Shown here: piece by piece, positions 1,077-43,378 of the stretch | Position numbering within the stretch: the first letter of the stretch is position 1 | Layout: each line of letters starts with the position of its first letter | Source of the DNA: Coffea arabica | Lineage: Eukaryota; Streptophyta; Magnoliopsida; Gentianales; Rubiaceae | Direction of reading: 5' to 3' | Assembly: GCF_036785885.1 (NCBI RefSeq) | Contig: NC_092317.1 | Span: 4,032,501 to 4,096,500 of the forward strand | DNA: 64,000 bases | Position numbers and translations under genes: made by a program | Notes under the pieces: model-generated | The model's database searches: none | What the model was told of the DNA's origin: nothing | The model's input: the letters and a program-made list of their open reading frames with translations, nothing else

Positions 1077-2408
1077 TTAAAATTTGATAGTTGTCACAAC
1101 CTTTGTAAGCATATCGGCAGGATTCTCTTTGGTCTGAATCTTTTGAAGTAGTATCGTACTATCTTCCAAAATCTTCCACACAAAATGATACCATACGTCG
1201 ATATGCTTCGTCATTGCATGATAAACCTGGTTTTTTGCTAAATGAATAGCACTCTGACTATCACAATGAACTTTGAAAGGCTTCTGTGCGATTCCCAATT
1301 CATCAAGCAACCCATGAACCCAAATTACTTCCTTAACAGCCTCCGTAACTGCCATATATTCCGCCTCTATTGTAGACAAAGCAACCCTTGATTGTAAGGT
1401 AGACCTCCAACTGACTTGTGCCTTAGTAAGTATAAACACATACCCAATCGTTGATCGATGTGTATCTTGATCACCTGCGTAGTCGGAATCACAATATCCA
1501 ACTGCGCCTTGACCAATCTTCTCATCCCGCTCAAATACTAATCCAACATCTACGGTATTCAAAATGTACCGTAAAATTCATTTCACAACCTGCCAATGCT
1601 CATTGCCAGGATCATGCATGTACCTGCTCAGAATTTCAACTGCTTGTGAAATGTCGGATTTTGTACACACCATAGCATACATCAAGTTACCCATCGCATT
1701 TGCATATGGTACATTTGCCATATATTCTCGTTCTGCATCATTCTTTGGAGATAACGATGCACTGAACTTGAAATGAGGAGCAAGTGGAGTACTAACAGGT
1801 TTGGTCTTTTCATTCATGCCAAACCTCTTTAATACTTTACTAAGATACTCTTTCTGAATCAAATAAAACCTCCCCAATCTTCTATCTCTACTTATCTCCA
1901 TGCCGAGAATTTTCTTGACTTCACCGAAATCCTTCATTTCAAACTCTCGACTCAAATGAGATTTTAATTTTTCAATCTCACCTTGATCCTTGGAAGCTAT
2001 CAACATATCATCAATATAAAGAAGAAGATATATGTAGGATCCATCTCGTAGCTTGCGCAAATATACACAGTCATCATATTTGTTTCTTGTGTACCTCTGC
2101 CCCATCATAAACTTGTCAAATCGCTTGTACCACTGCCTTGGAGATTGCTTCAATCCATACAACGATTTGTCAAGCTTACACATCGTCTTTTCTTTACCAG
2201 CAATTTTGAATCCTTCTGGCTGAATTATGTAGATTTCCTCTTCCAAGTCACCATGTAAAAACGCAATTTTTACATCTAATTGGACAAGTTTCAGATCCAA
2301 TTGTGCTATCAAAACCAATAAAATTCTGATGGAGGAATGTTTCACGACTGGAGAAAACACTTCGTTGTAATCAATTCCCTCCTTCTGAGCGTAGCCTTTA
2401 GCAACCAA
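1077..2408 (-). pseudogene. Copia reverse transcriptase and RNase H, broken
   Basis: The minus-strand frame from 2408 down to 1578 carries the Copia RT core (GYAQKEGIDYNEVFSPVV, the QLDVKIAFLHGDL block, KSLYGLKQSPRQWYKRFD and catalytic YIDDM). It ends at a TGA at 1578-1580, where the same frame continues as RNase H (1077-1562: GYCDSDYAGD, STIEAEYMA, KENPADMLTK). The two parts are in one frame, so the break is a single stop codon, probably Trp to stop. The frame upstream (integrase side) is shifted. Not expected to be active. Confidence 0.9.
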
Positions 2409-2410
2409 TC

Positions 2411-4280
2411 TTACTTTGTAGCAAACACCAGATTTGTTAGGAAATCCTTTCTTCTTTGCATATACCTACTTGGATCCAATTGCCTTCTTTCCCTTTGACA
2501 GATTGACGAGTTATCAAGTCTGATTCTTATAAAGGGACTGCATTTCTTCTTCCATGTTGTCCTCCATTTTCCTTTCTCTGAACTTTGGACAGCTTCAAGA
2601 TAAGTTGTAAGAACTTCATCTATTACAATTGCAGATGCATTAGCCACCATATTAACATACCGAGCAAGTACTTTGATATTCTTTTTTGGCTTACTCAATG
2701 CAATTGATTCAAGTTGCTGTGAAAACTCTCCAACTGGAACGCCTTCTTCAGTTGATTTTTCTTCTACCATAGGAGTCCTTTCATCTGCTCCTATATCCAC
2801 TGTTGGTCTGATAATGCTTCTTTCAAATTCCACCTGCTTAGGAGTGCTCTCCACCTGTTGGGGAGTACCATCATTCTGATGTACATCTACCTTTGTTAAA
2901 ACGATAGATTCATCAAAGGTGACATCCCTGCTAAAAACTATCTTCTTCGTCTCAAGACACCAAAGGGGATAACCTTTAATGCCTGTCGTGGTCCCCACAA
3001 AAAGTGCCTTCTTTACCCTTGGATCCAACTTTGATTCTTTAATATGATAATATGCAGTAGAACCAAACGCATGTAAGAAATCATAATCTGTAACAGGTTT
3101 TTCCGACCATTTCTCTAATGGCGTTTTGCCGCCAATAGCAGTTGATGGTAAGCGATTAACGAGGTGATTTGCATATGCTAAAACCTCAGCCCAAAATTGT
3201 CTGTCCAACCAGCATTGGACAATATATACCGAACTTTCTCCACCAATATTCGGTTCATACACTCTGTCACCCCGTTCTGCTGTGGTGTATCTCTGACTGT
3301 GAAGTGCCGAACAATGCCTTCATTTTCACAGATCTCCATAGACGGATCACTAGTGTATTCACCTCCGTTGTCTGTTCGAAAACGTTTAATCTTTCTTTTT
3401 GTTTGAGTTTCCACCATCTTTTCTACTTGATGAAAATTTTCAATACTTCATTTTTCACCTTCATAGTATACACCCATACTCTTCGAGAGAAATCATCGAC
3501 AAAGGTAACAAAATAATTTTTGCCTCTCAAAGAAATTGTTTTGGAAGGTCCCTATAATCAGAGTGCACATAATCCAAAATACCTTTGGTATCGTGAATTG
3601 CAGTGCCAAATTTTACCCTTGTCTATCTCCCTTTGACACAATGCTCATAAAAATCTAACTTGCAAACACTGGCTCCTTTCAACAGTCCTTGATTCGTCAG
3701 AAAATTCAAGAATTTTTCTCCGGTATGTCATAAGCACATATGGCATAATCTGGTTACTTTCAATTCTCGATCATCACTGAAAGCCACTGCCGCTACTCCA
3801 ATAACTGCATTACCTTGATAGTAATACAGTTATTATTTTTTCAAATTCTTTTCACCAACACCAATGCACCTGAAATGATTTTCATCATTCCATTATATGC
3901 TGACACCTTGTAGCCCATTGATTCTAGTACTCCTACAGAAATGAGGTTCTTTTTCAATTCTGGCACATATCGGACATCAGTTAGAATCCTAATTGATCTA
4001 TCCTGATTCCTTAGCCGAATTAAACCAACCCCATTTGTTGCTAATGTGGTCTCATCTGTCGTGTAGACGACTTCACCTTCTTGTTCTTTGAAATCAAAGA
4101 ACCATTCCCTATTGGATTCAGGTTGTAGGACGTCATATGATGACTACAACCTGAGTCCAATAGCCATGTACTAGAATAACCAGTAGGCATGACAGCTAAT
4201 GAAAAGTCTGAATCTTGATCAATGCACTCAGCTACATTTGAATCCGCAACAGTTTTTTCCTTGTCAGGTCTACTCTTCAA
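2411..4280 (-). pseudogene. Copia protease and integrase, broken
   Basis: At 4041-4280 the minus strand encodes the aspartic protease motif LLDSGCSHHMTS, in frame with gag upstream. Integrase core motifs appear at 3178-3417 (RTDNGGEYTSD, DTPQQNGVTECMNR), and the distal integrase with its C-terminal linker lies at 2411-3262 (SAYYHIKE-type block, FVGTTTGIKGYPLW, VFSRDVTFDES). The stretch 3418-4040 (GAG-pre-integrase and zinc-binding part) has no long frame, and frames differ between blocks, so several frameshifts or stops have built up. Confidence 0.85.
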
Positions 4281-4304
4281 TTTTGAGCAGTCCTTCTTCT
4301 AGTG

Positions 4305-5078
4305 TCATTTTTCTCTGCAAAAAGCACACTCATCTTTGCTTAGTTTAGCTCTCGACTTGGATCTACCTCTCGTCCCCTTTCTCTGATTTTGTGAGCGTCC
4401 TCTAGTTACCAGAGTTTCTGCTACTCCATCTCTACTACTTTGCTTGTCGTTTCTGCTGAGCTCGTAACTGTACAGGGCAGAGCTAACTTCACTGAGGGAC
4501 ACCTCAGCTTTCCCATGGAATAGAGTTGTTTCGAGATGGTTAAACTCCTCAGGAAGAGATCCCAACAACATGAGAGCCAAATCTTCATTTTCAAATGTCA
4601 CATCTAAATTCATCATATCAGTGATTAACTGATTGAAATTAGTAATGTGATCACTTAGAGTTGTGCCGAGAACATAAGTGAAGCGAAATAAACGCTTCTT
4701 CATATCGAGCCTGTTCTAACAATTTTTGTTCAAGAACTTCTCCTTCAATCCAGTCCACAATTTATTTGCAGAAGTTTCTTTTGAGAATACATATTTCTGT
4801 TTCCTTGAAAGACACGATCGAATTGTACCACACGCTAAACGATTTAGCGTCCTCCATTCCTTCTCTTCAATCTCTTCTGATTTCTCTTTTTCGATGGCAA
4901 TGTCTAGACCTTGATTAAAGAGCGCGTCTAAAATCTCACTTTGCCACATACCGAAATGACCGGTACCATCAAATGTCTCCACATTTAATTTTGCATTCAT
5001 CATAGCATTTCTTGCCATAATAGACGATAACGAGCTTGTCGATGCTTGCATTGTAGATGAAGATCTACTTTCGGCCAT
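4305..5078 (-). pseudogene. Copia gag, broken
   Basis: The minus-strand frame begins at 5078 and shows the UBN2-type gag region (NVETFDGTGHFGMWQSEI, LWTGLKEKFLNKNC), then a TAG at 4716-4718. It continues in the same frame at 4305-4703 (ITDMMNLDVTFENEDLALMLLGSLPEEF split by no further stop) into the zinc knuckle. The CX2CX4HX4C knuckle near 4280-4330 is itself interrupted by two stop codons, one on each side of the His. Confidence 0.88.
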
Positions 5079-5208: not shown

Positions 5209-5702
5209 TGTTGCGGAAACTCTACTAAATTAAGGTATAACGAGTAAATTATTGTACCTAAAATTGCAAAATGATAATTCCCAAGAAATATTTGGTGAGG
5301 CACACTGACCTGCTTAAGTATCAATTTCCTAGACAGAATCAACTATATATGCAATTAATTGCACAATAACTTACTACAAATATACCTACAAATATAGCTA
5401 CTAAATAGCCAATAAAATAGAATACTAGAATTTAACGAGATTCGGCTTATTTATCTACGTTTTTGGACACTACCGACAATTTAATATTTCACTAGAAGAA
5501 ATATTACAAAAAGAGAGAAAGAAGCAAGTTATGATGCTCTTGCTTGGTGTATCTTAATTGAGAAGGTAGAGAGCTTATTTATAACTCTCAAAATCTTCTC
5601 CAATTTATAAACCTATCGATGTGGGATTGTAATTGTGCCAAATAATTCAACAATTTTGGCTATTTCAAAGTCAATAATTGAGGCGTGGCTTTGAATTCAA
5701 CA
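5209..5702 (-). repeat. Copia LTR, right copy (5' LTR of the element)
   Basis: 494 bp, with termini TGTTG and CAACA, the partner of 448-941. As the element's 5' LTR it carries its promoter, which points away from the NAC 3' exons. Confidence 0.95.
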
Positions 5703-9998: not shown

Positions 9999-12900
9999 AT
10001 GGAGAAGAAGAAGTATCCAATCGGTGCGGAGCATTATACCCTGTACGAGGAGGTCGGGACAGGCGTAAGCGCTTCTGTTCATCGGGCGCTTTGTATTCCG
10101 TACAATGAGATTGTCGCCATCAAAATTCTCGATTTCGAACGCGATAACGTTGATCTGGTAACTCTCCCTTCTTGCCTCTGCGTTTTTTACTTTTTGCTTA
10201 AATAATTTCATGGCCTTCTTTTATGAGTAAATTATATATATATTGTTAGTGTGACATATGAGCAAATTTTGCACATGCATCGTATGATGACAGTGTATAT
10301 ATACTGACAGTATATATACGATTAATTTTTTTATATGTATATATATATGTGTGTGTGTGTTTGCGTATTTTCGAGTCATTTTTGCTTCGTGTTAATATGG
10401 TGACTCTGTTGTTGTTGCATGTGGGCTTGATTCATCGTCAACTGTCATTATGCTGGCGTGCGTACTTTTTTTTTTTTTTTTTTTTTTATCGTTTTAACGG
10501 AAACAGAAAGTAAATTGGAGTTTTTTTTTTAATTCTGTGGGTTTTTATATTATTGGGTCTAGTGATCGCCTCTTATGTCGAAACGAGTGCGAAATCAGAT
10601 CTTAAGAGTGTTTAAATTGATAAGGTTTTTAAAAGAGATCGCCGGCAAAGATGTGAGGGACAAAACAAATAAATCTGAAGAAGCGCATTTTTTTGTCGTC
10701 TAGCCTATTACTTAGTATGATACACAGAAGGTAAGTATATTTTAATTCATTAGACGTTGGATTGTTTGAATGCAACGTGGAAAAGTTACTGAATATTGAC
10801 CAGTTATCGTCATTACTATCTACTGTTTGCACAAAAGCTGGAGTCCTTGAAGCTTTGATTATTTGGAGCTCTGTTTGTGCTCTTTTCCCTTGTTTTCATG
10901 GTTGTTGTTAAATTAGTTTTATATGAATAAGAAATGAAAACAGAGTAGTTTCACTGGATATGTGTTTTTTTTTCCAACTTTTAAGTTGCAATTTTGAAAT
11001 AAACTTGTTAGTTTTATCAAATGTTGGTATTATATAAGTGATGGAACAGATTTTATGATTGATATCAAATGAATTATAGACATATAGACTACCAACATAT
11101 TCATCAATATATAGCTTTTTGTTTGTTTGGCAATTGAAAATTGTTGTTTGGAAAACTATGTTATGTTATTTCATTATAACCATGGTTGTATATTGGATAA
11201 TTTGACAAACTTACATAATTTGACTCTACGTAGAATAACATTTCTCGAGAAGCCCAAACAATGGTCCTGGTTGATCATCCAAATGTTCTAAAATCGCATT
11301 GTTCGTTTGTGAGTGATCATACCCTATGGGTGGTCATGCCTTATATGGCTGGGGGTTCTTGTCTTCACATACTCAAGGCTGTACATCCAGATGGCTTTGA
11401 GGAGACAGTTATTGCAACCATATTACGTGATGTACTAAAGGGATTAGAGTATCTTCACAGTCATGGCCACATTCATCGAGATGTTAAAGTAAGTTGCCGT
11501 TGAACTTTTTGAGCAAATTGTATGCAAAATAGTCTTGATTTCAATCTTCATTACATATTATTTTTGCTTTCAATCAACAGCTTATCATATTTATAATGAC
11601 ATGCAACAGCATGTGTTGTGCAATACGGCAATTGTGTGTTTAAATACACAAGTGTACCTAGTTACAAGTTGTGGGCAACTTCTTGTTACTTCATAGTTTA
11701 ACAACACAGGCACGAAATTTTAGTTCAATCTTCATTACCACTTGGTATATGCGCATATAGTAGACTTGTCCAAAAAATCAACCATGAATATGAAAAAGTA
11801 TTACAGTGTAAGTATGTAAAATATTCTAAGAATAAACTTGAGCTTTTCCACTAGGTAGTAATGTTTAATAGATGAACCTGCATGTGAGGTAGAAAAGACT
11901 TTTGGGAGGCCTTAATGTTTCTTAGCTATGTATAATGCTTATACTACAGATTAAGTGAAGAAAACATAAAGCTGCATGTTACCATTCCCGGTAGAAAATG
12001 CCTAGCTAAGGCATCTCTTGTTTAATAAAAACTGAAAGAAAGCTTCGATACAAGCAGGATGAATAATTTTGTCCAATTGGAAGCATGTTGAGTTTCATGC
12101 TTTTGATAACTTTTAAGATCAAATAGGCATATGCATTAAAAGAGAGGAGCTAATCCTAATTGATGAGATGGTAGAGCATGGCTTTGGAAATTCGTTGATG
12201 GCAATATTTAAGACACTTAAACTGTATCTTGTTGTTAATGCGACAGCTTTATGCATTAAAAGAGGAGTGCTAATCCTAATCGATGAGATGGTAGAGCATG
12301 GCTTTGGAAATTCATTGATGGCAATATTTAAGACACTTAAACTGTATCTTGTTGTTAATGCGACAGCTTTTTTGAAAGTACTCAATTTAGATCCATCATC
12401 ATTTTCATTACCCTTTTTTTTTGCACTCTTAGGCTGGAAATATTCTCATCGACTCTCGTGGTGGAATCAAATTGGGAGATTTTGGTGTTTCTGCTTGCTT
12501 GTTTGATTCAGGTGATAGGCAGCGCACGAGGAATACATTTGTTGGAACTCCTTGTTGGTATGTTCCATAGCAAGAGACTACTTTTTCACATTTTAGCACT
12601 TTCTCAATGTTATTTTGTTTGTTTGAATGACTACGTTGGAGGATTTCTTGTTAATACCTTTATAATTCAAAAGCTGATTCATACCCATGCATAAGTACAT
12701 TAAGTTAGTCTACTATATCATCTTAACCAGTTTTTTATGATTCAAGCTTATGTTCATTTTCTTATCACTTTTCTTTCTGTCGTGTGTCCATTTTCTTACA
12801 GGATGGCGCCTGAGGTTATGCAATTGCATGGTTATGACTTCAAGTATGTCTAAATCTTGTCTCACTTTGTAAATTTGGATTTAAGATATAAATTCTATGT

Positions 12901-31717: not shown

Positions 31718-33546
31718 CTAATTGCTCAATTCAAGAAACCTTAATGCCATAGGATGCTTAGCTTCAGATAGTTTATCAGGTTTTAAGATTTCAACAATCT
31801 CACCACCGACAAGAAGGCAAACTACATCAGCAATCCTCTGGATTTGTTTGATACTGTGAGAGACCATAACTATAGTCATCCCCTTTTCCTTCTTCAATTT
31901 TACAAGAACATCTTCTATGTTCTGTGTTGAAATTGGATCCAAGGCACTAGTCGGCTCATCAAGTAGTAAAACCTAAATTGTAAAGGGAAACGCAATGTTA
32001 AATGTTGGAACTCCACAGACTCCATAAAAAGAGAATTTCCTAGACATACAACTATTGGAGTCCTGCAGTCGCATATGAATCTTACCTCTGGCTCATTAGC
32101 TAAGGTACGAGCAAGAGCGACTCTTTGAGCTTGACCAACAGATAACTCTCCACCAGATTTACTGAAGAAAGTAGAATCCAGGTCTGCAAGAGTAAGCAAC
32201 TTATAAACCTCATTGTCAGTCAGCTTCTTCCCCTTTAGCTGCGGCCCATATCTTATATTGTCAGCCACTGTGCCTGCACAAGTCCACAGTAGGTAACGAG
32301 ATCAATCAGTCAATCAATCTATTTATCATCAAACCACATTATGATATCAAAAAATCTATTTCTACAAAACTTAGAACATGGTGTCTCACTAGTTCTCTTT
32401 GGCTGTTTTTTAGCCTAGATACCCCAGGCTCAGATGATGGTTATATACTTATATCAATCAGCTGCTTAGGCAATGAATGACACAGGGACCATCCTTGACA
32501 TGTAAGCGGATATCACAATTTGATGATTCAACCACATAAATCTAATGAAGCACGACAGACAGTAGTAATAGTATCAAAAGTTCATAGCCTTCAATGGGGC
32601 AGAGTGACTTAGCAGGCAGTAGGGGAAAGACCTCTTTCAGATTGTGACACTCCTCTAAGATCCTTATAACAAAAAATACAGGAGATGCAGAACATCGTCT
32701 ATATGCATATTCAGCTGCGAGGAAGGCAAAAAAAAATCACAATTTGGGAGAACGGAATTAAGTACTAATCTCATTTCCTAGGAAGCATATCTACTCAATA
32801 AACAGACATTAGTTTGTTTGATCAACATATCAACTCAAATTTTTTTTTTTGAGTTGATCAACATATCAACTCAATTTCCAAGATAAAGCAGTGCCTATCT
32901 CTACACAATCAGCTAGCTCATGAATTAGTGCTATGATTTGAATTCACCTTCAAACAGAGCAGGAAGCTGGAAAAGCATGCCAACTCTTCTACGAAGAGCA
33001 AGTACATCGAGGTCACCAATGTCTTGACCATCCAAAAAAACAGTCTTGGATGGAGGCTCCCATAATCTGTTGAGAGCCCTTAAAAATGTAGACTTTCCAC
33101 TGCCACTAGGCCCTATGACTCCCATGATCACGCCTCTAGGAATATCAGCGTTGACTTTGTTCAGGATTGGAACACTCTTGTCTGAAACTTTTGACAGTTC
33201 CCTTATCTGAATTTTAGCATCTGATGATTCATTCCCGCTTCCATGTTCATTCTCATTCACATCCACCACTAGCAAGCGTTGCTCAGCCTCATCTAGCCCT
33301 ATAAGTCAAAAGGGTAAAAGATTTTTGATCAAGAAATGAAATTTATGCTACTGAACAAAATAAAAATCAATTCTTGAAATCAATTTTGGAAAAGAAGTTG
33401 TATAGATGTATGATGATGTTCTGACCTGAGTAAGACCCCATGGGAGTGTAGGAAGTTGAAGAAGAAGGCAAGGTTGAGAGGTGAATTGCTGCATCTTTGT
33501 TTTTATAGGCAGGTGGAACTGCCTTCCCTAGTTCCACTTCTTGCAT
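31718..33546 (-). CDS. STAR1: STAR1/ABCI17-like ABC transporter ATP-binding protein
   Basis: STAR1 is a lone nucleotide-binding subunit of bacterial type that pairs with the membrane protein STAR2/ALS3 in aluminium tolerance. Exons on minus: 33546-33426, 33298-32948, 32273-32086, 31972-31718; all GT-AG, phases close, 304 residues. ABC motifs: Walker A GPSGSGKS (103-110), Q-loop in GMLFQLP (Q151), signature LSVGQAQRVALA (from 201), Walker B VLLLDEP (221-227), D-loop SALD, H-loop VSHS (H259). The wording RGVIMGVIGPSGSGKSTF and SIKQIQRIADVVCL matches Arabidopsis ABCI17 (263 residues). The first ~60 residues are extra and poorly conserved; the ATG at 33546 is the only one in frame that uses exon 1 neatly, but a longer in-frame extension exists upstream and the start is the least certain part. 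Confidence 0.92.
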
Positions 33547-35244: not shown

Positions 35245-35253
35245 AAGTTTCAA
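35245..35253. repeat. Pack-MULE target-site duplication, left
   Basis: AAGTTTCAA, identical to 36918-36926. A 9-bp duplication is diagnostic for Mutator-like transposition. Confidence 0.92.
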
Positions 35254-35450
35254 GGGCAAATTATCCAATTGGCCCTTAAACTATTTGTTTAAGTAAAATA
35301 AAGCCCCTCATCTATTTTTTGTTGACTTTAAGCCCTCGAACTTGTAAAATTGGACACCCGTGACCCTTTTTGCCAGTTTCTCCGGTTTTGCAACCGGAAA
35401 GTGAATTCACACGAATGCCAGTATGCTTTTAAGAAGGGCATTTTTGTCAA
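35254..35450 (+). repeat. Pack-MULE left terminal inverted repeat
   Basis: 197 bp, reverse complement of 36721-36917 with few differences (for example around 35303-35325). Confidence 0.92.
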
Positions 35451-35474
35451 AAGATTCAAAACTCGCGTAAAAAC

Positions 35475-36025
35475 TGAAAGAGATAGCCATCGGGTTGGAG
35501 AGGAGCGAGCAAAAGTTCCTGTGGGTGGTGCGCAGTCCGCCTTCTGAGGACAAAACCAGCCGCTTTCAAACTCCACCCGCCCCAGATCTGGATTTGTTGC
35601 TTCCTCACGGGTTTTTGGACCGGACAAAGGGTAGGGGTTTCGTGGTGAGTTCTTGGGCACCGCAGGTGAATGTGTTGAATCATGGGTCGGTGGGTGGGTT
35701 TGTGACCCACTGTGGGTGGAAATCAGTGTTGGAAGCAGTCTGTGCGGGTGTGCCTATGGTGTGGTGGCCGCTTTATGCTGAGCAGAAGCTGAATAGGCTG
35801 TTCTTAGTTGAGGAGATGAAGTTGGCCTTACCAATGGATGAAAGTACGGAAGGTGGGTTCGTGAAAGCGGCTAAAATCGAGAAGCGAGTTAGGGGGTTGA
35901 TGGATTCGGAGGAAGGAAAGGTGATCAGGGAAACAGCCCAGGCAAAGAAGGAGGAAGCAAAGCAAGCCATCGGCATTTTTGGCAGTCTCGCCACCGCAGA
36001 GCGCTACAAAGCGATTGTAGATTGA
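35475..36025 (+). pseudogene. Captured UDP-glycosyltransferase fragment (UGT88-like C-terminal half)
   Basis: Family-1 UGTs move sugar from UDP-sugar to small molecules. The captured part opens with [20 protein letters not shown], the start of the C-terminal donor-binding domain, and carries the PSPG box ([12 protein letters not shown], then [20 protein letters not shown] and YAEQ), then runs to the native-looking stop TGA at 36023-36025. The usual HCGWNS is HCGWKS here, an Asn-to-Lys change at a sugar-contact position. The acceptor-binding N-terminal half is absent. An ATG at 35495 opens a frame of 176 residues, so a truncated protein is possible, but it could not be a normal enzyme. Wording resembles UGT88 most. 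Confidence 0.88.
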
Positions 36026-36211
36026 GGTGTCTGCTTTGTAGGCGAGTTGCTGATAGAGAATGCTCTTGGTGAGGGCAAGGAATGGGGAGTGGTGAGACTC
36101 AAATGCCGGAGGCTGGTGGGTATCGATCAGGGTAGCAAGTAAAGGGTCAACAACACGGAGGTGGTGGAGAGCGGCATTGATTTCACCCTCGGCCGACAGG
36201 GGTTTGATGAT

Positions 36212-36748
36212 CTAGGGCAGAACCCTAGCTGATTGGACAGCACTACGCCTCCGATTCTTGGGCATAGATGCCGTGGGTGTGGAAACTGTGGTGGAAGTAA
36301 CAGCAGTGCTGGTCAATGCGAAGGTGGAGGTGATGGTAGTGGTGGTGGTAGAGGAGGAGGAAGCAGTGGTCGGAATAGGTATGGCAGAAGGGGAGAAGGA
36401 AGAATCAGTAATTTGTTGGGCTTTGGCCTCGGAAGTCTGCAAGGTGGGCATGAAGGAGGAGTTAACGGCGGTGAGAACAACGGGGGTGGTGGCAATGGTG
36501 GAAGTAGGGTTAGATGACAGCTTTCGGATTTTTTGAGGTCGAATAGGTATTTTGGAAGGATTGGAGGGCTTCTGGGAAACGTCGGCATTGATGGTGTCCA
36601 TGGGGGAGGAGACGAATGGGAGGGAGAGGGAGAGGTTGCGGGAGAGAGGAGAGGAGAGGGAGACGGCATCGGTGGAGAAGTCAATGAGGAGAGAGGAGAG
36701 AGGAGTTGTTCCTTTTTTGCTTGACAAAAATGCCCTTCTTAAAAGCAT
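36212..36748 (-). pseudogene. Second captured fragment, chimeric antisense ORF starting in the TIR
   Basis: A 178-codon minus-strand frame starts at an ATG in the right TIR (36746-36748). Its first nine residues come from the TIR and the rest from captured DNA. Downstream is an internal Met (MDTINADVSQKPSNPSKIPI, then RPQKIRKLS) that looks like the natural N-terminus of a host protein, followed by a Ser/Thr/Pro-rich stretch. I do not recognise the source gene. The plus-strand Gly/Val-rich frames over the same span are shadows. It might be transcribed from the TIR. Confidence 0.6.
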
Positions 36749-36917
36749 ACTGGCATTCGTGTGAATTCACTTTCCGGTTGCAAAACCGGAGAAACTGGCA
36801 AAAAGGGTCACGGGTGTCCAATTTTACAAGTTCGAGGGCTTAAAGTCAGCAAAAAATAGATGAGGGGCTTATTTTTACTTAGACAAAGAGTTTAAGGGCC
36901 AATTGGATAATTTGCCC
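36721..36917 (-). repeat. Pack-MULE right terminal inverted repeat
   Basis: 197 bp, the inverted partner of 35254-35450. Confidence 0.92.
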
Positions 36918-36926
36918 AAGTTTCAA
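36918..36926. repeat. Pack-MULE target-site duplication, right
   Basis: AAGTTTCAA, identical to 35245-35253. Confidence 0.92.
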
Positions 36927-40689: not shown

Positions 40690-40785
40690 TGAACTTGGAA
40701 CCAACAGCCCAAAGCTGTTGGCTAACGCCAAAGACTTGAAGTTTTAGTGAGGTGAGAGATCATAGGTTTAAATCTTGTCTCCCAT
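40690..40785 (+). repeat. SINE-like fragment
   Basis: GTGAGAGATCATAGGTTTAA followed by ATCTTGTCTCCC resembles a tRNA-type B box and is similar to the copy near 63900. No A tail or TSD seen because a tandem repeat follows directly. Confidence 0.3.
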
Positions 40786-40959
40786 CATTTGCGTGTGATT
40801 TCTTCAAATCCATACGGGTATGTAGTACACCTATCTTATCTAATGGTAGTTCAATTCTTATCGATTCCCCACCATTTGCGTGTGATTTCTTCAAATCCAT
40901 ACGGGTATGTAGTACAGCTATCTTATCTAATGGTAGTTCAATTCTTATCGATTCCCCTG
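40786..40959. repeat. Tandem duplication, 2 x 87 bp
   Basis: 40786-40872 and 40873-40959 are almost identical (one clear difference, ACACC versus ACAGC). Because 87 is divisible by three, an open frame crosses both copies, but nothing suggests coding. Confidence 0.88.
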
Positions 40960-41776
40960 TAGGTCCAGTTGGACCTTCAGATGATGGTTCAATTCTCGTC
41001 GGTTCCCTGTAGGTCCAGTTCTCCTAGATTATTTTAGAGTAAGAATAGGAGTAAGAATAATAGTAGAGTAGATAAGTGACAAATGACAAAAAACAAATAT
41101 GAATTTGGAACCTTATAAATTTTTTGAAAAGAAAATATTAGTAAAAATAACTCTAAATCAAGTAGTAGAGATTTTTCCGTTTCTCTTTGAAAGCAATAAG
41201 ATTATACTCTCTTTTTTTTTTCTGAAACGATAGGAAAATAAGATTATACACATTGTGAAAATGAAAACTTAAAATGGAGGATAGGTGAAGTGTCCAGGGA
41301 CTACAGCGTTGGCCTTTTTTTCTGTTTGTAAGTAATGTAGCCTTGTTCTCAAAGATTCTGTTTATTGTTGAGCATACAAACACTGCAAAGTTTTTTTTTT
41401 TTAAGGCCAAATACTACAAAGTTTATACATTCTTTTAATTACTTCCTCTATTTACGTGTACGTCAACTTTTGGAATTTTTTTTCCCAATTAATCGGATGG
41501 AGAACAGAAAGGTCAATTGTCTAGAGGACTAAAATGTCAAATTGCAGAACTTCATGAGAATAAACATATTAGCCCATACCATAGAGGATCCGAATGCAAA
41601 TTTTCGTAATTTTCGTATCGTCTCCAGTTAACGTGCGCTATTCCAGACCAGAGTTGCAGAGTTGCTCTTGCAGCTATTCCCCGAACGGCGTTGTTAGCTG
41701 AGATACAAGAGATATCATTACATATATGTATACTCCGCTGATTCTTCAAGTTTCAGTTTATATCTAGAAACGGAAA

Positions 41777-43378
41777 ATGGCGATCACATTCGTCTCTTCT
41801 CGCGCCAAGACCACAAAAGATATACTCCAATCGTTACTCAAGAAAGCCCATTCCTTTAGACCCTTTTCATCTTTCTGTGACAAGGACCCACCATCCCCGG
41901 ACCTTGTGAACGAGCTTTCTCGAATTCTCAGCGACTACAGAAGCCCCCACCACGATATTCAATCAGTCCTTCATCCATTTTCCTCCAAAATGTCAACCAA
42001 CTTAGTCGAACAAGTCCTTAAACGGTGTAAAAATCTGAGCTTTTCAGCTCACAGGTTCTTCCTCTGGGCAAGGGAATTACCGGGTTTTCAGCATAGTAAA
42101 GATAGCCATCATATTTTAGTTGATATTTTAGGCAGTAGTAAACAGTTTCCATTAACATGGGATTTTCTTGTCGAGATGAGGGATACTCGAAAATTTGAGA
42201 TCAGCTCAGAAATTTTCTGGATTGTCTTCAGGGCTTATAGTAGAGCTAATTTGCCAGCTGAAGCTATCAGGGCTTTTAATAAAATGCTTGATTTTGGGAT
42301 TACCCCGACTGTTAATGACCTTGATCAGCTTATTTATCTGCTTTGCAAAAAAAAGCATGTTAGACATGCCCAGGAATTTTTTGATAAGGTTAAGGACGAT
42401 TTCACTCCAACTGCAAAAAGTTACAGTATTTTAATCAGAGGGTGGGGTGAGATTGGGGAGTTGGGCAATGCCAGCAAATTGTTTGATGAATTGCTTGGTA
42501 GAGGATCTGAAATTGATTTACTTGCTTATAATAGTATTTTGGAGTCTTTGTGTAAGGGAGGGAAAGTGGATGAGGCATATAAGTTGTTCAGTGAGCTGAG
42601 GTCGAAGGGATTTGTGCCTGATGCTTTTAGTTATTCAATCTTCATTCATGCTTTTGTTGAAGTAAATGATATGCATTCAGCTTTTAGAGTTCTGGATAGG
42701 ATGAAAAGGTACAATCTTGTGCCAAATGTGTATACTTATAATTGTATTATTAAGAAGCTTTGTAAGAATAATAATGTGGAGGAAGCATACCTACTTCTGG
42801 ACGAAATGGTAGAGAGGGGAGTGATGCCAGACGTCTGGAGTTACAATGCTATTCTAGCTTTTCATTGTGATCACAATGAAGTGAATAGAGCACTTAAGCT
42901 GATTTCAAGAATGGATGATTATGGGTGCCAGCTGGATAGGCATACCTACAATATGGTGCTAAAAATGCTTATCAGAGTGGGAAGACTGGATAGAGTTCAA
43001 AAGGTTTGGGAGAGTATGGATCAGAGAGGATTTTATCCTCCAGTCTCAACTTATGCTGTAATGGTCCATGGTCTATGCAAGAAGAAACACAATCTTCAGG
43101 AGGCATGTAAATATTTTGAAATGATGGTTGATGAAGGATTACCACCTTATACTGAAACCTGTAACTTGTTGAGAAACAAACTTATTGGGTTAGGAATTGC
43201 AGAGCAGACTGAGATACTTGCAGATAAGATGGAGAAAAGTACTTCCTGTTCAATACAGGAGCTATCAAGTATAATGCGGGGTACGAAGGTACCACGCAAG
43301 GTTGATGATAAAATGAGATGTCGAGGTGAATATTCAGATGAAAGTGATGACTGGAGGAGAACAGATGTTTCTAATTAG
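41777..43378 (+). CDS. P-class pentatricopeptide repeat protein, mitochondrial (At1g52640-like)
   Basis: PPR proteins bind organellar RNA and affect its processing, stability or translation. The intronless 533-codon frame begins with a Ser/Arg/Lys-rich, acid-poor leader (about 1-35, ending near SFRPFSSFCDKD), typical of mitochondrial import. P-type 35-residue repeats run from about residue 145 to 470, with clear units around PTAKSYSILIRGWGEIGELG, DLLAYNSILESLCKGGKVDE, PDAFSYSIFIHAF, PNVYTYNCIIKKLCKNNNVE and PDVWSYNAILAFHCD. No C-terminal E or DYW domain, so not an RNA editing factor of that kind. The phrases SSNLVEQVLKRCKNL-type, AHRFFLWA, LDQL and CDHNEVNRA match Arabidopsis At1g52640 throughout, making it the likely orthologue. 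The C-terminal tail is acidic (EYSDESDDW). RNA target unknown. Confidence 0.93.
   Translation: MAITFVSSRAKTTKDILQSLLKKAHSFRPFSSFCDKDPPSPDLVNELSRILSDYRSPHHDIQSVLHPFSSKMSTNLVEQVLKRCKNLSFSAHRFFLWARELPGFQHSKDSHHILVDILGSSKQFPLTWDFLVEMRDTRKFEISSEIFWIVFRAYSRANLPAEAIRAFNKMLDFGITPTVNDLDQLIYLLCKKKHVRHAQEFFDKVKDDFTPTAKSYSILIRGWGEIGELGNASKLFDELLGRGSEIDLLAYNSILESLCKGGKVDEAYKLFSELRSKGFVPDAFSYSIFIHAFVEVNDMHSAFRVLDRMKRYNLVPNVYTYNCIIKKLCKNNNVEEAYLLLDEMVERGVMPDVWSYNAILAFHCDHNEVNRALKLISRMDDYGCQLDRHTYNMVLKMLIRVGRLDRVQKVWESMDQRGFYPPVSTYAVMVHGLCKKKHNLQEACKYFEMMVDEGLPPYTETCNLLRNKLIGLGIAEQTEILADKMEKSTSCSIQELSSIMRGTKVPRKVDDKMRCRGEYSDESDDWRRTDVSN

Follow-up and report, generated by a model that had tools for sequence, protein, structure and literature searches.

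The 64,000-nucleotide stretch of the Coffea arabica genome analysed here (C8:4032501-4096500; the window) holds a short segment, bounded by long inverted repeats, in which an open frame with a UDP-glycosyltransferase (UGT) domain runs into a second gene piece on the opposite strand. Two questions are raised by this locus: how pieces of different genes came to lie between one pair of repeats, and whether the frames that they form are of any use. Comparison with the rest of the genome (1.198 Gb in 131 contigs searched) indicates that the segment is very probably a nonautonomous Pack-MULE, its cargo assembled in steps from gene pieces and the whole presumably moved in trans.

Boundaries and insertion site

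The terminal inverted repeats (TIRs) have the target-site duplication (TSD) directly outside them.

35245-35253, no strand: left TSD AAGTTTCAA, present as one copy in the C7 empty site (AAGTTTCTA)
35254-35450, + strand: left TIR, 197 bp
36721-36917, - strand: right TIR, 197 bp
36918-36926, no strand: right TSD AAGTTTCAA, a perfect 9-bp repeat

The element spans 35254-36917, and its TIRs are identical at 192 of 197 positions (5 mismatches, 97.5%). These coordinates, the TIR length and the perfect 9-bp TSD are those given in a preliminary description of this DNA, and all were confirmed. Long TIRs and a TSD of 9-11 bp are features of MULEs; the element has 197 and 9 bp, respectively. The description had also stated that transposase was absent, and no transposase domain was matched in the five frames scanned. 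GC content is 0.53-0.54 in the cargo versus 0.36 in the 2-kb flanks.

Because the 9-mer AAGTTTCAA is not rare in the AT-rich window (four occurrences on the + strand and four on the -), the weight of the TSD rests on its position at both ends of the element and on its single copy in an empty site. The right flank corresponds to C7:4274432-4275878 at 94% identity. When 120 bases of each flank were joined for comparison, C7 was found to be continuous across the insertion point (BLAST pieces of 96.8 and 94.1% on either side), with a single AAGTTTCTA replacing the duplicated AAGTTTCAA. The element therefore entered C8 after the C7 and C8 regions had parted. C7 and C8 would be homeologs, judging from the similarity of the flanks and from the paired IMP dehydrogenase (IMPDH) parents on these two chromosomes.

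The neighbours of the element were read by eye as an ABC transporter on the left (frames 31718-33305, - strand) and a PPR protein on the right (frame 41768-43378, + strand). Further off in the window, a 494-bp direct repeat (448-941 and 5209-5702, 91.5%) lies around frames 1077-4715 (- strand), which look by eye like a copia-type gag-pol and, with these repeats, probably represent an LTR retrotransposon. Two tandem 121-bp units (96%) occupy 12130-12370, and two tandem units of about 87-90 bp (98%), with open frames on both strands, occupy 40781-40957.

Captured pieces and their parents

Between the TIRs, the following features were recognised.

35446-35470, + strand: dynamin-gene relic, 25 bp, 2 mismatches, overlapping the inner TIR edge by 5 bp; parents C4 near 19.00 Mb and C3 near 19.09 Mb
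35472-35970, + strand: 499-bp piece captured from a UGT gene, covering about residues 291-456 of the parent, its homology secure up to 35967; nearest parent C4:1794301-1794799, 98.4%
35471-36025, + strand: 184-codon open frame of UGT piece, filler and antisense glycosylase; stop at 36023-36025, first Met at residue 96
35982-36594, - strand: 613-bp piece captured from an HhH-GPD DNA-glycosylase gene, lying antisense to UGT; parents C13:6691259-6691871 (98%) and C14:8490626-8491235 (97%)
36212-36214, - strand: nonsense change (Q to stop) that interrupts the glycosylase frame, common to the window and C19 copies
36590-36687, - strand: 98-bp piece captured from an IMPDH gene, its frame continuous with that of the glycosylase piece; parents C7 near 12.19 Mb (97%) and C8 near 11.54 Mb (96%)

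The UGT homology reported earlier on the + strand was borne out (Pfam UDPGT, E=3e-20; best match to solved UGTs, E=3.5e-63), as was a second, convergent gene piece, now identified as the glycosylase. The count of two captured pieces was too low, since the IMPDH piece and the dynamin relic are also present. A search for one intact parental UGT had been suggested; parents with open frames were indeed found, but as a set of at least six similar genes with uninterrupted frames, 96-98% identical to the captured piece, at least four on C4 at 1.79-1.85 Mb and at least two on C3 at 1.86-1.88 Mb. The closest to the window copy are L010 and L012, with 4 synonymous and 4 or 5 nonsynonymous differences. 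Viewed as clusters, the UGT genes on the two chromosomes extend over C4:1.786-1.847 Mb and C3:1.864-1.880 Mb, with at least six open frames.

The frame of the C13 glycosylase parent contains an HhH-GPD domain (E=2.6e-18). The IMPDH profile matched the longer piece of related element L023 at E=3.3e-14; the window's own frame reached 0.0014, below the cut-off. The dynamin relic (E=6e-4 versus nine parent loci) is part of a 450-bp piece found in L020 and L023 that is 96% identical to the C4 and C3 loci. The L023 frame matched Dynamin_N (E=4.9e-18) and also a ribonucleotide-reductase (RNR) small-chain piece (E=1.1e-25), whose parent lies on C14 (94-95%). Parent loci were thereby located for all five genes (UGT, glycosylase, IMPDH, dynamin and RNR). 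The window element, with pieces of four of these genes and no transposase match in the five frames scanned, has the make-up of a nonautonomous MULE carrying non-transposon sequence. The parents are not flanked by TIRs: in 14 parent loci of 3.6-10 kb, the TIR gave 0 matches at E values up to 1e-3.

These observations bear on segmental duplication, which the preliminary description had named as the case that would overturn capture, and on assembly artefact. The UGT parents lie in tandem clusters, where local duplication does occur. However, identity to them breaks off within the coding exon at both ends, at least three copies of the element carry different TSDs, and the C7 site is cleanly empty. 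With TIR-free parents in addition, segmental duplication was rejected, and either explanation is extremely unlikely. The identification as a Pack-MULE stands on the same exon-internal ends, on parents located elsewhere without the TIR and on the empty site.

Copies and the TIR family

In whole-element searches of the genome, the best 40 of 434 candidates were scored, so copy counts are lower bounds. There are at least three full-length copies: the window element, one on C19 (99.0% identical, with a 7-bp deletion) and one on C5 (97.8%), the last differing from the window copy by 25 transitions (5 at CpG) and 12 transversions. At least four further copies (C21, C7, C11 and C14) have the glycosylase part with other left contents and without UGT. 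All seven glycosylase-bearing copies are flanked by perfect 9-bp TSDs, each different. Multiple full copies, differing TSDs and the empty counterpart site together mark a unit that is mobile with its cargo. Perfect 9-bp TSDs were found in 16 of the 19 extracted family members at the coordinates used; L020, L021 and L027 lack one there (the extracted L020 is two bases too short and L027 one base), and L028 lies in a TA run that makes its TSD ambiguous. The TIR search proposed in the preliminary description was productive beyond the two additional full copies: the 28-base TIR end, allowing up to 2 mismatches, occurs 146 + 138 = 284 times in the genome, and its reversed control 0 + 0 times.

Family members with other cargo were also seen. 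L024 contains an LRR piece, and L025 and L027 contain cytidine-deaminase pieces; nucleotide-related genes (cytidine-deaminase, IMPDH, RNR and DNA glycosylase) recur in the cargo, which may be chance. L017-L019, also of this family, measure about 1.13 kb and contain long open frames; L017 has the IMPDH piece and dynamin relic in common with the window element, and the one frame of it that was scanned gave no Pfam match. L044 (C10:46745100-46750300), 4.99 kb long and bounded by the same TIR ends, is possibly a larger cargo-bearing member, whose terminal stretches include about 430-450 bp in common with L027 and 450 bp in common with L024.

Candidates for the source of transposase were found among larger elements. 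L039-L041 are three elements of 6.12-6.16 kb with long, closely similar frames and perfect 9-bp TSDs, all different, which suggests that this family may have moved recently. In scans of six frames, L041 matched DBD_Tnp_Mut (28 bits, cut-off 25) and SWIM (21 bits, cut-off 19.6), with MULE at 27.5 bits, just under the cut-off of 27.6. For L039, L040 and L042, one frame each matched SWIM at 36-37 bits, and L043 gave a weak MULE match. On these domain matches, the frames of the L039-L043 type were taken as putative MuDR-type transposase. The TIRs of the window element are related to those of L039-L041 (84-86% identity over 195 bp), the left TIR being 85-86% identical to their left ends. Mobilisation in trans would be by a related MuDR-type MULE, and an element of the L041 type may be what moves the window element; with TIR identity to the transposase-bearing elements as a whole at only 84-89%, these particular elements may not be the helper.

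Probable order of captures

The element in the window has acquired its cargo in successive steps, from at least four plant genes, and states before, between and after these steps are present among its relatives. In L020-L023 and L028, dynamin, RNR and IMPDH pieces lie between the same TIRs (L020 and L023 were compared with the parents; L021, L022 and L028 were read by frames and alignment). The interior of L023 was matched over its whole length at nine genome places, these five elements among them. In L004-L006, the glycosylase piece sits within the IMPDH piece, 22 bp of which are replaced; remnants of dynamin and RNR are present, as are 88 bp more glycosylase than in the window copy. L007 has kept dynamin, shows no RNR match and has internal deletions. 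In the three full copies, UGT occupies the place of the dynamin/RNR remnants and of the 88 bp of glycosylase.

The order suggested by these states is as follows. Dynamin, RNR small-chain and IMPDH pieces would first have come to lie between the TIRs; the glycosylase piece would then have entered the IMPDH piece, with microhomologies of 5 and 2 bp; and the UGT piece would last have replaced the left interior, that is, the dynamin/RNR side and 88 bp of glycosylase. One base change is common to all seven glycosylase pieces and absent from both parents, and with the shared right junction it speaks for a single glycosylase capture. The argument is made from the junction and the base change because the tree of the glycosylase segment, in which two groups are supported (L001 with L002, and L004-L006), does not separate elements from parents.

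A tree of the terminal ends (413 columns, 19 elements) was also built. The UGT copies form one clade (98/91) among the glycosylase-bearing copies, and the five dynamin/RNR/IMPDH elements form one clade outside (99/96). Copies with glycosylase alone do not group into a single clade, which is what an origin of the UGT form among them would predict; L007 falls nearest the UGT copies with weak support (85/78), and several forks are weak.

Junctions and possible route of capture

The junction between the UGT and glycosylase pieces contains a short filler.

35968-35981, no strand: junction filler CATCGGCATTTTTG; 10 bp equal to the inner TIR end (35437-35446), shuffled-filler P about 0.01

The filler includes GGCATTTTTG, which is the inner TIR end in left-TIR orientation. 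Shuffled fillers matched the L004 element equally well in 0.97% of trials, and random background 14-mers did so in 3.2% (636/20,000), the background including the window and the parents. Among the 636, 358 are full 14-base matches and were taken as the element or the parents themselves; by a hand figure, about 1.4% is left without them. The match to the TIR is, by these controls, modest. At the right glycosylase/IMPDH junction, GATGG (5 bp, 36590-36594) is common to both sources, as is GG (2 bp) at the left one in L004-L006. The left UGT junction has an AAA filler and no clear microhomology.

Microhomologies and a TIR-like filler fit template switching in break repair, and we consider it reasonably likely that capture took this route, the template being switched while a break within the element was repaired. 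Such switching was argued for animals in PMC8277862. The main rival is fusion of two related elements inserted close to each other, in which outer TIRs come to be used as one unit and inner parts are lost, as modelled in PMC8903248, which reports families of such a kind. A lost inner TIR would leave just such a filler, with 10 bp of inner TIR in left-TIR orientation. Against this, the donors lie on several chromosomes and the 14 parent loci lack TIR matches; fusion does not predict a glycosylase piece set within IMPDH with short microhomologies and a 22-bp replacement, and it would require several deletions for the UGT form. Fusion is judged unlikely.

Coding potential of the cargo

The UGT frame had been described as retaining the whole donor-binding domain, the PSPG box and its own stop. 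The frame is open in all three full copies. The parent UGT has 478 residues, of which about 166 codons (about residues 291-456) are in the element; the acceptor domain is absent and the donor-binding domain is incomplete. Nor is the stop its own: parental homology ends at 35967-35970, 21-22 codons short of the parental stop, and the stop at 36023-36025 is supplied by filler and antisense glycosylase sequence. The PSPG box is present, but in the window copy it is altered by D-to-N, N-to-K and G-to-W changes that are absent from the C19 and C5 copies; two others, F-to-Y and M-to-I, occur in the C5 copy. The asparagine of this box is important for sugar binding. The first in-frame Met (residue 96 of 184) falls within the box, and a TAA immediately precedes the frame. 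A functional plant UGT (GT1) has an acceptor domain, a complete donor domain and an intact PSPG box, and the window frame has none of the three.

On the opposite strand, IMPDH and glycosylase are joined in both native frames, and the joint frame is open in L003-L006 (four of the seven glycosylase-bearing copies), running from stop to stop over 276 codons in L004-L006 and 312 in L003. The window and C19 copies contain a stop, and L007 yielded no frame by the motif filter used.

Changes in the cargo were counted for signs of selection. In the three UGT copies, variable sites are 9 nonsynonymous to 1 synonymous, in a piece whose nonsynonymous sites outnumber the synonymous ones about 3.5 to 1. 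For the glycosylase part, six elements were compared, and 19 nonsynonymous changes and 1 stop stand against 7 synonymous (the count excludes L007, which has internal deletions, and parent L016, whose length differs). Relative to L015, all six share one nonsynonymous and two synonymous differences. Over these few sites, the cargo changes look neutral, with a ratio near the neutral one and no sign of constraint.

These data were weighed against the possibility that the element is a domesticated chimeric gene, in which the IMPDH-glycosylase or the UGT frame makes a useful protein. The native-frame fusion, open in four of seven copies, and the UGT frame, open in three of three, are what such a gene would offer. 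Change counts near the neutral ratio, the stop common to the window and C19 copies, a first Met inside the PSPG box, the N-to-K (window) and F-to-Y/M-to-I (C5) changes in that box and the missing acceptor domain all count against it, and domestication is very unlikely.

A second possibility is that antisense or hairpin transcripts of the element would give rise to small RNAs that target the glycosylase genes and the UGT cluster. The element has 335 exact 24-mers in common with L010 (runs to 133 bp) and 360 with L015 (runs to 141 bp), so small-RNA effects may occur, and rice Pack-MULEs possibly encode small RNAs according to PMC8277862. Such similarity is expected of any young capture, however, and a regulatory role is improbable. 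The new function hinted at in the preliminary description, as chimeric gene or antisense control, is without support, since the post-capture changes, small in number, look neutral. The cargo is most likely neutral gene debris, as judged from its sequence.

A bolder proposal would make the lineage a serial exon-shuffling device, in which microhomology-guided template switching writes new captures into breaks in old cargo and has let one lineage sample at least five genes from several chromosomes, and in which the IMPDH-DNA glycosylase fusion is made as protein or element RNA silences the UGT cluster. As a whole, this proposal is doubtful.

Comparison with known systems

Pack-MULEs of rice, tomato and maize (MULE superfamily, class II) have long TIRs, 9-bp TSDs and GC-rich cargo of unlinked gene pieces. 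The coffee element is like them in all of these respects, in lacking transposase and in being multicopy. Unlike them, it belongs to a genome that keeps earlier, intermediate and final cargo states together with the parents, an empty site and transposase-bearing elements with the same TIRs, and in the coffee lineage one capture was for the most part overwritten by a later one. Among rice Pack-MULEs, 36% (481/1337) are multicopy, according to PMC3310237 and PMC8277862. With autonomous MULEs of the MuDR type, the element shares related TIRs and 9-bp TSDs; unlike them, it has no transposase and would need moving in trans.

Stepwise addition of gene pieces in related elements is described in PMC8903248 for Zm-Pack-PIF cluster 18 and Os-Pack-Mariner cluster 217, where pieces are gained through insertions within an element or when two elements fuse. 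In coffee, unlike those clusters, the pieces replace earlier cargo, and the junctions have microhomology and filler. Breakpoint microhomology and multicopy spread of some elements are also seen in animal Pack-TIRs, attributed to gap filling/FoSTeST; these are mostly hAT and Tc/Mariner, unlike the coffee MULE (PMC8277862). PMC3310237 calls gene uptake by Pack-MULEs not yet understood, and PMC8277862 leaves the question open for plants and calls the applicability of animal models to plant Pack-MULEs worth exploring. Titles and abstract openings of the literature searched, mostly outside subscription journals, made no mention of UGT capture by a Pack-MULE or of this coffee TIR family.

The frame studied here carries a warning: even when a frame is open, shows a convincing domain and ends in a stop, it may be a mosaic that owes its stop to the antisense of another gene. 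The lineage keeps the states before and after two captures. Exact junctions, donor loci, an empty site and relatives with transposase are available as well, so models of capture can be compared base by base. Set beside the known systems, this Pack-MULE is ordinary in kind and unusual in the completeness with which its assembly can be read.
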